Shown here: positions 10,661 to 49,826 of the stretch, piece after piece
How the letters are laid out: the number at the start of each line of letters is the position of its first letter
Position numbering within the stretch: the first letter of the stretch is position 1
Source: Paenibacillus lupini
GTDB taxonomy: Bacteria; Bacillota; Bacilli; Paenibacillales; Paenibacillaceae
Reading direction: 5' to 3'
DNA length: 64,000 nt
NCBI RefSeq assembly: GCF_011761355.1
Contig: NZ_JAASRW010000002.1
Location: forward strand, 558,001 to 622,000
Program-made: the position numbers and the translations under genes
The notes under the pieces: generated by a model
Database searches by the model: none
What the model saw: only the letters and a program-made list of their open reading frames with translations
What the model was told of the DNA's origin: nothing

Positions 10661-10797
10661 ATGCTTACGAATAAGAATTACCGCAAATGGCCCAATTAGG
10701 CCATCATTGCAGAAATTCTTAGGAGAATGCTTACGACGTAAGAATTACCGCAAATGGCCCAATTAGGCCATCTTTGCAGAAATTCTTTTTAGGAGGG
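10661..10797 (+). repeat. Leader hairpin element, two tandem 66-bp copies, abutting the rocD Shine-Dalgarno
   Basis: Copies start at 10661 and 10727 (ATGCTTACGA). Each holds AAGAATTACC, a strong inner stem (GCAAATGGCC with GGCCAT..TTGC) and AAATTCTT. The first ends AGGAGA; the second ends TTTTTAGGAGGG and provides the rocD ribosome-binding site. They are nearly identical to each other. Confidence 0.85.
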
Positions 10798-32829: not shown

Positions 32830-32844
32830 TCTCTTAATCTTTCG

Positions 32845-32874
32845 CCTGACCGGCTCGCCGGTCAGGTTTTTTTG
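32845..32874 (+). terminator. Intrinsic terminator of ftsZ (end of the dcw cluster)
   Basis: CCTGACCGG (32845-32853) pairs with CCGGTCAGG (32858-32866), followed by a T-run. Confidence 0.9.
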
Positions 32875-32887
32875 TTTACATAGCTCT

Positions 32888-33602
32888 GAAAGTCCGTCTG
32901 GTGATCAAAAGTGCCAAAACCAGGTTTACGTGGTCCTGAAGGCTGGAACCAGCCTTCAGGATGCTAACCTAGCCAACTATAGCCCGCAGTAAGTCCGAAA
33001 ACCGCCCTACAGGAGGTCAAACGTGCCCAAACCAAGGCTAGTGTATCGTGTAAGGCTGAAACCAGCCATTCAGGATGCTAACCGGCCAACTAGCCAGCTG
33101 TAAGTCCGGAAACCGCCATACAGAAGGTCAAACGTGCCCAAACCAAGGTTAGTGTATCGTGTAAGGCTGAACCCAGCCTTACACGATACAAAACTAGCAT
33201 ATAGCCCGCTGTAAGTTCGGAAACCGCCCTACAGGAGGTCAAACGTGCCCAAACCAAGGTTAGTGTGTCGTGTAAGGCTGAAACCAGCCATTCAAGATGC
33301 TAACCTAGCCAACTAGCCAGCTGTAAGTCCGGAAACCGCCATACAGAAGGTCAAACGTGCCCAAACCAGGGTTAGTGTATCGTGTAAGGCTGAACTCAGC
33401 CTTACACGATACACAACTAGCCATCTAGCCCGCTGTAAGTCCGAAAACCGCCTTACAGGAGGTCAAATGTGCCAAAAGCAAGGCTAGCGTGCTCCTGAAA
33501 GGCTGAAAGCAGCCTTTCAGGGTAAGAAACTAACCATCTAGCCCGCTGTAAATCCGAAAACCGCCCTATAGATGGTCAAACGTGCCGAAAGCAAGTTTAG
33601 CT
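32888..33602. repeat. Tandem array of about 6.5 units of 101-113 bp, each with a central hairpin
   Basis: Units begin at GTAAGTCC-like points: 32888 (degenerate, 101 bp), 32989, 33100, 33211, 33323, 33435 and 33548 (half unit, ends about 33602). Most carry a conserved block CCGCCCTACAGGAGGTCAAA and then GTGCCCAAACC. Units at 33100 and 33323 have a long near-perfect hairpin with arms GTATCGTGTAAGGCTG and CAGCCTTACACGATAC. Units at 32888 and 33435 have different arms (TCCTGAAGGCTGG-type, CCTGAAAGGCTG-type) that are again self-complementary. Units at 32989 and 33211 mix a left arm of one type with a right arm of the other. The array ends about 11 bases from the stop codon of the minus-strand nuclease gene. 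Confidence 0.93.
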
Positions 33603-33612
33603 CTGCCAATCA

Positions 33613-34266
33613 TTATTTATTTACAATAAAGCAACGAGCACGTTTAGTGCCTTCACCATGTTTGATTAGTCTATTGGATTTAATGAGATTATTAATCAGA
33701 GATTTTGTTCGATCTTTCCCAATTTGTAAGTGCTGACGAACATCTATCGGCCGTATCGGACGATCAAGCTGCAGCGCGTAACGAATAATCTCCTTCTCCA
33801 GAATATCATCCGCGCTCGAATCAGCATCCAGGGCACTCCCCAGTCTTGATCCAAAAAACTGCTGCAGTATTTGGATGCACATGCGAGGCTTATCCCTGAC
33901 ATCGTCGTAGGAGAAACGCAGAACATTCCATTCGTCGATCACTAGATGATTTTGCCTCACCAGATGATCAGAGAATTGCCATCTGCTTACCCCAGCAGCG
34001 TGAGTGTTAAATCCATCTATCTCGATAGCAAGCCGGAGAGGGGAGCGAATATAGGCAAAATCCAAATATCTTTTCCCATCACGAAAGTCCACTATCTCAA
34101 ATTCAGGATGAAGGTAGTCGAATTGTGAGAAGGCGGGGAACCATACTTTTTGCAGAAAAAGTTGTCCTTCGTGACTATGTCCTTCCAGTAGTCTTCTTTT
34201 ATTTTCTCCGACTCGCCTCTTAAGATGATCATGAAACCAGCTTTCATAAACCTCTTCATACGACAA
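33613..34266 (-). CDS. Vsr/DUF559-like endonuclease-domain protein with C-terminal winged helix
   Basis: 217 residues. Residues about 60-135 have the layout of a PD-(D/E)XK nuclease of the DUF559/Vsr type: RYLDFAYIRSPLRLAIEIDG supplies a D...E-x-D core, and HLVRQNHLVIDEWNVLRFSY matches the R..D-L...W-VLRF-Y block shared by Vsr and DUF559 proteins. Residues about 150-217 look like a winged helix (RPIDVRQHLQIGKDRTKSLI). The only possible start is TTG 34266; GAGGAG lies about 12 bases before it, slightly far. It interrupts the otherwise conserved ftsZ-spoIIGA junction, so it is probably accessory. The tandem hairpin array lies directly behind it. No cognate methylase is nearby, so it is not an ordinary restriction system. 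Confidence 0.75.
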   Translation of the reverse strand: MSYEEVYESWFHDHLKRRVGENKRRLLEGHSHEGQLFLQKVWFPAFSQFDYLHPEFEIVDFRDGKRYLDFAYIRSPLRLAIEIDGFNTHAAGVSRWQFSDHLVRQNHLVIDEWNVLRFSYDDVRDKPRMCIQILQQFFGSRLGSALDADSSADDILEKEIIRYALQLDRPIRPIDVRQHLQIGKDRTKSLINNLIKSNRLIKHGEGTKRARCFIVNK

Positions 34267-41423: not shown

Positions 41424-41745
41424 ATTGCATGGTAGTTGATTCAAACTTCATTGACGAGAACGAGTACGATTCCAAGTTCGTCCACCAGAGAGCCGTTGAT
41501 TGCTGAGAAGCGGCGTTCGAACCGATTCGGAAAATCATCTCCGAGAAGCAGCGCTGAACATGTGACCCTTGGTGGTTGCATCATTAAGAGCTGACGGTTT
41601 GTCCCCCGTTACAGGGACCGCGAATTGTTCATTCGCGCCAAGGTGCCGCAGTCGGTTGATTCATTCAACGTGGACTACGGAACAAGGGTGGTAACGCGAG
41701 CTAAGCCTCGTCCCTTTTACAGGGACGGGGCTTTTTTGTTTTTTA
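41424..41745 (+). promoter_or_regulatory. T-box leader (tRNA-Ile sensing) of ileS
   Basis: The 3' half shows the T-box AACAAGGGTGGTAACGCG (41681-41698), one base off consensus. A terminator follows: CCTCGTCCC (41706-41714) pairs with GGGACGGGG (41722-41730) and runs into a T-run. The 5' half folds as stem I with an AGTA element (near 41462). ATC (Ile) codons at 41534 and 41537 lie in the segment where the specifier loop is expected; the exact specifier needs folding. Uncharged tRNA-Ile should favour the antiterminator. Confidence 0.88.
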
Positions 41746-41746
41746 A

Positions 41747-42024
41747 GCTAATGCTTACGAAGTAAGAATCATCACGAACAGCCTGAATTTGGCTGTTAAA
41801 GTTCTAATTCTTTTAAGCTAATGCTTACGAAGTAAGAATCATCACGAACAGCCTGAATTTGGCTGTTAAAGTTCTAATTCTTTCAGCTAATGCTTACGAA
41901 GTAAGAATCATCACGAACAGCCTGAATTTGGCTGTTAAAGTTCTAATTCTTTAAAGCTAATGCTTACGAAGTAAGAATCATCACGAACAGCCTGAATTTG
42001 GCTGTTAAAGTTCTAATTCTTTTT
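41747..42024 (+). repeat. Leader hairpin element, four tandem 69-70 bp copies, between the T-box and ileS
   Basis: Copies start at ATGCTTACGA at 41751, 41821, 41890 and 41960, and are almost identical. Each has a CTTAC/GTAAG mini-hairpin, then AAGAAT paired with ATTCTT around a perfect AACAGCC/GGCTGTT stem. The last copy ends TTCTTTTT directly before AGGAGG. It is the same family as the elements before panE and rocD, but with a different inner stem. Confidence 0.92.
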
Positions 42025-49639: not shown

Positions 49640-49826
49640 TATATGGCAGTACCTTTAAATCAGCCCAGAGAGGCTGGCAAGGTAGCGTGAATAACAGATC
49701 TGCCATACATAGAACAGGGGCCTTAGCCTGAACCGTATCCTGCTGGGATAGCGGCGGCTGAGCTGACCCTCTATGTATGGCTGGTCTCAGGCTCCTTGCG
49801 TTGTTAGCGAGGAGCCTTTTTTTGTC
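49640..49826 (+). promoter_or_regulatory. PyrR-dependent attenuator of the pyr operon
   Basis: The PyrR-binding loop CAGCCCAGAGAGGCTG (49661-49676) matches the known ARUCCNGNGAGGYU pattern. The antiterminator pairs CCATACATAGA (49703-49713) with TCTATGTATGG (49770-49780). The terminator pairs AGGCTCCTTGC (49789-49799) with GCGAGGAGCCT (49807-49817), then a T-run. UMP-bound PyrR should favour termination. Only this one attenuator is seen in the operon, before pyrR. Confidence 0.87.

Follow-up and report, generated by a model that had tools for sequence, protein, structure and literature searches.

The window, a 64,000-nt stretch of Paenibacillus lupini DNA (contig NZ_JAASRW010000002.1, positions 558,001–622,000), carries a tandem palindromic array in the region between ftsZ and spoIIGA and, adjoining it, a minus-strand gene for a protein of a nuclease family (Table 1). 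The initial annotation had counted about 6.5 tandem units, in agreement with TRF, which reports a 111-bp period repeated 6.2 times (32905–33600) and, within the same array (32888–33602), a higher-order dimer of 223 bp × 3.1. The site was also given correctly, but a 217-codon gene separates the array from spoIIGA. The unit range of 101–113 bp was drawn too widely: a 23-nt block occurs seven times across the array at a spacing of 111–113 bp. Units 4–5 are a copy of units 2–3, i.e., a duplicated 223-bp dimer.

Pairing of the arms within each unit, as claimed in the same annotation, holds for the four hairpins it named, which are perfect, but not for units 2 and 4, where the main palindrome (H1) combines a left arm of GTATCGTGTAAGGCTG type with a right arm of ...CAGGATGC type. 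A weaker second palindrome (H2, CTGTAAG...TACAG), read from the sequence, lies 50–52 bp past H1 in each unit, so the block CCGCCCTACAGGAGG includes the right arm of H2; in unit 2 its centre is 50 bp past H1 and 61 bp ahead of the next H1. The array begins 10–13 bp past the stop codon of the nuclease-family gene and flanks that gene on one side only.

Table 1. Coordinates of the array, its palindromes and adjoining features in the window.
Feature	Position	Strand	Description
Terminator-like hairpin	32844..32867	+	3' of ftsZ, on the array's far side
Tandem palindromic array	32888..33602	.	6.2–6.5 units of 111–113 bp
H1, unit 1	32934..32961	.	perfect arms, 13 bp
H2, unit 1	32987..33012	.	degenerate, CAGTAAG...CTACAG; read from sequence
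H1, unit 2	33041..33080	.	mismatched arms; contiguous pairs in the inner 5 only
H2, unit 2	33098..33123	.	CTGTAAG...ATACAG
H1, unit 3	33153..33190	.	perfect arms, 17 bp
H2, unit 3	33209..33234	.	CTGTAAG...CTACAG
H1, unit 4	33263..33302	.	mismatched arms; contiguous pairs in the inner 5 only
H2, unit 4	33321..33346	.	
H1, unit 5	33375..33414	.	perfect arms, 19 bp
H2, unit 5	33433..33458	.	CTGTAAG...TTACAG
H1, unit 6	33494..33521	.	perfect arms, 12 bp
H2, unit 6	33546..33571	.	decayed
Nuclease-family gene	33613..34266	-	217 aa, TTG start; Vsr-like region (MTES_1575/DUF559) and C-terminal winged helix
Winged-helix coding stretch	33616..33819	-	approximately residues 150–217

An Rfam scan of the array returned no family at gathering score and three matches far below it, and a riboswitch or other known RNA was rejected on this ground. 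CRISPR was rejected because the whole 111-bp unit repeats, with no unique spacers; no cas gene occurs among the five neighbours scanned, which encode FtsQ-type, FtsA, FtsZ, SpoIIGA and sigma factor proteins.

The nuclease-family gene beside the array

The 217-residue protein matches the profiles MTES_1575 (PF18741) at residues 64–136 and DUF559 (PF04480) at residues 68–134, its nuclease region scoring 18.1 bits, below the Pfam cut-off of 38.2. Among 56 homologues, 46 match MTES_1575 and 49 match DUF559 at E ≤ 0.01, and all 56 share the invariant residues D69, E82, D84 and H89, a putative active site predicted from the sequences. A structure search identified the C-terminal domain as a winged helix close to MarR-type regulators; the nuclease fold was left unconfirmed by this search, in which the winged helix filled the match lists and the N-terminal fold was barely probed. 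PMC3710099 describes MTES_1575 as a fusion of a Vsr REase with winged helices. The protein resembles MTES_1575 and DUF559 domains in its profile match; it differs in its small size, with two domains, and in the tandem palindromes next to its gene. Source databases name its homologues 'DNA-binding response regulator' (several), 'DUF559' or 'very-short-patch-repair endonuclease'.

The gene is under purifying selection, with dN/dS of 0.11 and 0.08 at dS values (1.8 and 2.8) near saturation. Its synonymous divergence from orthologues is roughly 3–4 times that of the adjoining ftsZ and spoIIGA (dS 0.58–0.74), as if it mutated fast or were replaced by copies from relatives. Eight broken or partial copies were left out of the family tree.

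Possible roles as mobile or defensive cargo were considered as well. Of four homologues run through PADLOC, three gave no match and the fourth two weak ones (E 0.016 and 0.041), and a defence system was rejected. Cargo of phages or plasmids was rejected too: none of 50,697 phage records matched the family, and among 72,556 plasmid records two did, one of them a 2.7-Mb Paenibacillus replicon.

Recurrence of the gene–array pair and its palindromes

The family is present in 50 of 51 genus genomes, with eight copies in the genome of the window, and across the order in 221 of 296. We read up to 20 kb of sequence around 80 further genus copies, drawn from the upper part of a longer match list, so the resulting 81 copies, which include five of the eight in the window's genome, lean toward close relatives. 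Arrays were called within 600 bp on period (48–76, 100–130 or 160–350 bp) and length alone, palindromes inside them being checked separately, and 26 duplicate proteins were removed before counting. A tandem array accompanies 41 of the 81 copies; among 603 control anchors placed in these regions, 12 have one (Fisher 1.7e-32; the counts cluster on the phylogeny and p values ignore kinship). Arrays with a lattice period number 38 beside the genus copies versus 8 beside the 603 anchors, and those with a strong palindrome 29 versus 8, no strong palindrome being detected in 12 of the 41 genus arrays. Array sequences vary by locus and the layout is alike, often with two palindromes per unit of 112–113 or 123–125 bp. 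The array is downstream of the gene at 34 genus loci (a locus with both being counted here) and upstream at 7; downstream arrays often start only tens of bp from the stop codon. Forty control regions (800 kb) of the window's genome contained neither an array with a 100–130 bp period nor a TAAGRYCC palindrome.

Contrary to the view of the array as a stand-alone covarying element, it belongs to the adjacent nuclease-family gene, and such pairs recur. A single local duplication as the origin of the array is ruled out by its recurrence at other loci.

In the order-level set, arrays adjoin 13 of 27 copies, 12 of these in one genus of another family. Among named loci, arrays occur at 8 of 19 in Paenibacillaceae, 3 of 30 in Bacillaceae and 1 of 3 in Caryophanaceae, so it is chiefly on the Paenibacillus side that gene and array go together. 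Arrays went undetected at 35 of the 74 intact copies from the genus, at 14 of the 27 from the order-level set and at 27 of the 30 named Bacillaceae loci, which points to another or older role of the protein. Arrays may be undercounted, since 13 copies scored as lacking one sit within 600 bp of a contig end. In L082, L100, L101, L115, L171, L185 and L190, and likewise in L226, L235, L250, L260, L261 and L268, the contig breaks off no more than 600 bp downstream of the gene, perhaps because arrays break the assemblies.

Other arrangements were seen at individual loci. The copies in L052 and L121 adjoin longer tandem periods (227–288 bp), possibly a variant layout. In L088 (10955–13679), a small palindrome array lies 1.5 kb downstream of a nuclease copy and is flanked by two insertion-sequence-like gene pairs in opposite orientation.

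A nuclease-family gene occupies the ftsZ–spoIIGA interval in many species. We read this interval in 30 of the 51 genus genomes, leaving out G003, which has no ftsZ on the stretch. Arrays accompany 10 of 13 intact genes, 1 of 8 broken or fragmentary genes and none of 9 intervals from which the gene is absent (Fisher 0.0075 for intact versus broken; 9e-5 for intact versus broken plus absent). The sole array beside a broken gene, in G064, is marginal, with a period of 107 bp. SpoIIGA is 92–96% identical in the six nearest relatives. At the ftsZ site, G068, G072, G008 and G031 have a broken gene and no array, G018 has an intact gene with about three units, and G001 has an intact gene with only about one. 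The palindrome sequence at one and the same site varies between relatives.

Palindromes of the array types are also dispersed through genomes. The pattern TAAGRYCC...GGRYCTTA occurs 153 times in the window's genome versus 0 for the reversed control pattern; of the 51 genus genomes, nine have many copies (21–153), three have few (1–5) and 39 have none, the reversed control matching once in each of six. The pattern TGTAAGNRC...GYNCTTACA is common in different genomes (G069, 114; G071, 84; G067, 60; G011, 31; G028, 23), rarer in nine (1–10) and absent in 37, its control matching once in each of two.

As a rule, the dispersed type follows the type of the array. Over the 34 genomes with examined nuclease copies, the six with a TAAGRYCC array at such a copy have 47–153 of these palindromes, versus zero in 23 of the 28 others (p 3.7e-6), and the eight with a TGTAAG array have 4–114, versus zero in 22 of the 26 others (p 5.5e-7); these statistics ignore phylogeny. 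The TAAGRYCC-type nuclease genes are the orthologues beside degSU. TAAGRYCC palindromes without a matching array at an examined copy occur in G063 (29), G018 (21), G022 (5) and G020 (1), and G031 has 74 of them and a truncated nuclease gene at its degSU site. The TAAGGCTG palindrome of the window itself has three genome-wide matches, two of them inside the array, so the array at this locus is resident and lacks a large dispersed population.

The TAAGRYCC arrays that we read (L307–L309 and L311) lie between open reading frames, with spacings mostly of 52, 71–73 or 123–125 bp. The L307 array (10.6–11.8 kb) is an old shared site where the unit number changes: counterparts of differing length occupy the same place in G001, G031, G068 and G072, that of G008 lies at a contig end, and G018 keeps one decayed palindrome. 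No clean or fresh insertion site was found on following this array in the six relatives. A repeat with GGATT...ATCC and TCCAACGTA adjoins the array in the same intergenic region (L307 10831–11060 and the counterparts in G001, G031 and G068) and looks common to several species.

Palindrome spacing and arm pairing

Spacings between palindrome centres, counted once per locus, fall into the classes 51–52, 61–62, 72–73, 112–113 or 124–125 bp in 84 of 128 cases from 59 loci, orthologous loci among these not being independent. Classes are set apart by about one helical turn, each falling within 1–2 bp of a whole multiple of it; the resultant is 0.58 at 10.5 bp, and the best-fitting period is 10.35 over all spacings, or 10.75 over the subset below 100 bp. 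The window array, read from its sequence, has spacings of 50–52 and 61–62 bp. In the far flanks, 82 spacings gave small peaks at 52, 73 and 125 bp (6 each), which we attribute to extra arrays seen there. Phasing of this kind points to protein binding on a single face of the DNA. Classes one helical turn apart favour a role at the DNA level and argue against one in RNA; of the two forms of the fold entertained earlier, DNA is thus the better supported, and palindromy persists despite sequence change.

Arm pairing gave a divided result. For a 17-pair helix in the six window units, 86.3% of 102 cells are paired versus 78.3% in shuffles (none of 500 as high), and 7 of the 17 pairs have changed on both sides, representing few independent events because units 4–5 copy units 2–3. 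These changes may go back to a single event that unit duplication then multiplied, or one arm may have templated the correction of the other. In TAAG-class palindromes (n = 109, 11 loci), arm matching reaches 94, 97 and 85 cases at three variable positions versus a shuffled expectation of 53–54 (none of 1000 as high), and this matching partly reflects a mixture of two subtypes. TGTAAG-class palindromes of relatives (n = 65) show no arm covariation against shuffling, with 25 paired versus 29 at position 1, 51 versus 50 at position 2 and 10 versus 24 at position 4.

Selection for a perfect fold is therefore not general, and we rejected arm covariation as a general rule. The compensatory change that the initial annotation took as a sign of selection for the fold exceeds shuffles in the window but does not extend to the TGTAAG class; absence of covariation among many copies, named there as evidence against such selection, is what we found in the TGTAAG class and not in the TAAG class. 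A dimer reading each half-site independently, or templated correction, fits the covariation data equally well.

A REP-like reading and its alternatives

The Vsr-like nuclease/winged-helix gene and its array likely form a REP-like pair, with predicted binding, local amplification and spread of the palindromes, a proposal that we hold with about even confidence. Beyond the computed gene–array pairing, spacing classes, link to intact genes and matching dispersed types, we infer binding, cutting, amplification and spread by the nuclease-family protein. The winged helix would bind the palindromes as dimers on one helix face, and the nuclease domain would make nicks or cuts inside the array or next to it. 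As the break is repaired or replicated across, units might be amplified and arms homogenised or replaced, and palindrome copies could occasionally be seeded in other intergenic regions. The gene keeps the same chromosomal sites in many species (ftsZ–spoIIGA; beside degSU), and in this it is closer to a domesticated enzyme accompanied by a population of repeats than to an autonomous transposon.

Alternatively, the protein may be a DNA-binding regulator or chromosome organiser, its nuclease minor or lost, and the palindromes useful dispersed operators or docking sites. Such a role would suit helical-turn spacing, through cooperative binding on one face, and a winged helix near MarR-type regulators, and it agrees with the shared sites across species, the purifying selection and the name 'DNA-binding response regulator' given to several homologues. 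We nevertheless think it unlikely, as the catalytic-type residues are invariant in 56/56, palindromes at the same site vary between relatives, which is odd for useful operators, and copy numbers span 0 to 153 between species.

That the hairpins act as RNA, in the 3' UTR of the nuclease transcript, where they would stop transcription or stabilise the message, is quite improbable. Helical-turn spacing classes have no RNA reason, dispersed arrays are intergenic and away from the gene, 7 of 41 arrays are upstream of it, TGTAAG-class palindromes are often arm-mismatched and lack covariation, and no Rfam family lies in the array; these points outweigh the downstream position of the array at 34 of 41 genus loci, often near the stop codon, and the effects of REP hairpins on mRNA elsewhere that PMC8049555 mentions.

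A passive origin, by slippage and unequal recombination of a chance hairpin with templated quasipalindrome correction and no involvement of the nuclease, appears very improbable. It would account for two arm types in units 2 and 4 and one in units 3 and 5 (templated correction plus dimer duplication), and leaves unexplained the link to one gene family, the shared spacings in different sequences and the matching dispersed palindromes. An undetected RAYT or insertion-sequence system making the palindromes, with the nuclease as bystander, would fit the REP-like copy numbers and intergenic placement and is highly improbable: the Y1/HUH transposase profile PF01797 matches nothing in the genome of the window, and none of the 8 of 51 genus genomes that do match has more than one TAAGRYCC or TGTAAG palindrome, which largely rules out a RAYT.

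The REP-like pair that we propose can be set against REP/BIME/REPIN elements and their RAYTs (TnpA-REP, REPtron). According to PMC2817692, RAYTs sit with REPs, evolve fast and track REP abundance; PMC8049555 presents them as single-copy, vertically inherited genes. The likeness lies in high-copy dispersed intergenic palindromes, in few chromosomal cognate genes that adjoin their own palindromes, in a gene outpacing its neighbours in evolution, and in gene presence tracking palindrome number. More than 100 copies per genome are reached by the TAAGRYCC (153, window's genome) and TGTAAG (114, G069) types, the window's own type having three, and the nuclease-gene type tracks the abundance of its own palindrome with the exceptions given above. 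Unlike in REP/RAYT, the enzyme is unrelated (a Vsr-like region plus winged helix, PF01797 being absent), and helical-turn-spaced tandem palindromes lie on one side of the gene, versus two inverted REPs around a RAYT; no GTAG tag was noticed by eye in the printed palindromes. The nuclease–array system is not a REP/RAYT member, and REP/RAYT is its closest working analogue.

Vsr-like (EDxHD) homing endonucleases such as I-Bth0305I place a Vsr-type fold in a selfish element; they are self-copying and lie within introns or genes, unlike the nuclease-family gene here, which is at shared intergenic sites. As small dispersed elements in Bacillales, the palindromes resemble bcr1, a repeat of Bacillus cereus named in PMC3733652, and other MITE-like repeats. 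The literature searched, a scope that left out most subscription journals and preprints, gave no recognised description of a nuclease–palindrome pairing. To our knowledge, bcr1 and MITE-like repeats are not tandem lattices and have no cognate nuclease, and no well-known system other than REP/RAYT pairs a resident gene with a genomic palindrome population.

We tentatively suggest, at slightly less than even confidence, that Bacillota possess a second, independently evolved REP-like class, a small Vsr-like nuclease with a winged helix at fixed chromosomal sites, in which the resident nuclease would found and feed palindromes on a helical-turn lattice and both specificities would change together. 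If true, this would open the REP questions of what spreads such repeats and why hosts keep them to an independent Gram-positive system, and would explain many of the repeats between Paenibacillus genes, along with some breaks in the assemblies. It would also offer a testable role for the protein family now carrying the three source names listed above.

Other elements were noticed as well. A further dispersed repeat family, away from the nuclease gene, occurs at 41741–42023 and 10661–10787 and in L146, L147, L156, L159, L162 and L167, with 41–72 bp units in 2–4 tandem copies, a conserved ATTCTTACTTCGTAAGCAT-like block and a variable hairpin; in the window, one ATTCTTACTTCGTAAGCAT-type array lies directly 3' of a T-box leader (41442–41718). 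The Rfam scan also placed a PyrR binding site RNA (RF00515) at 49648–49825.
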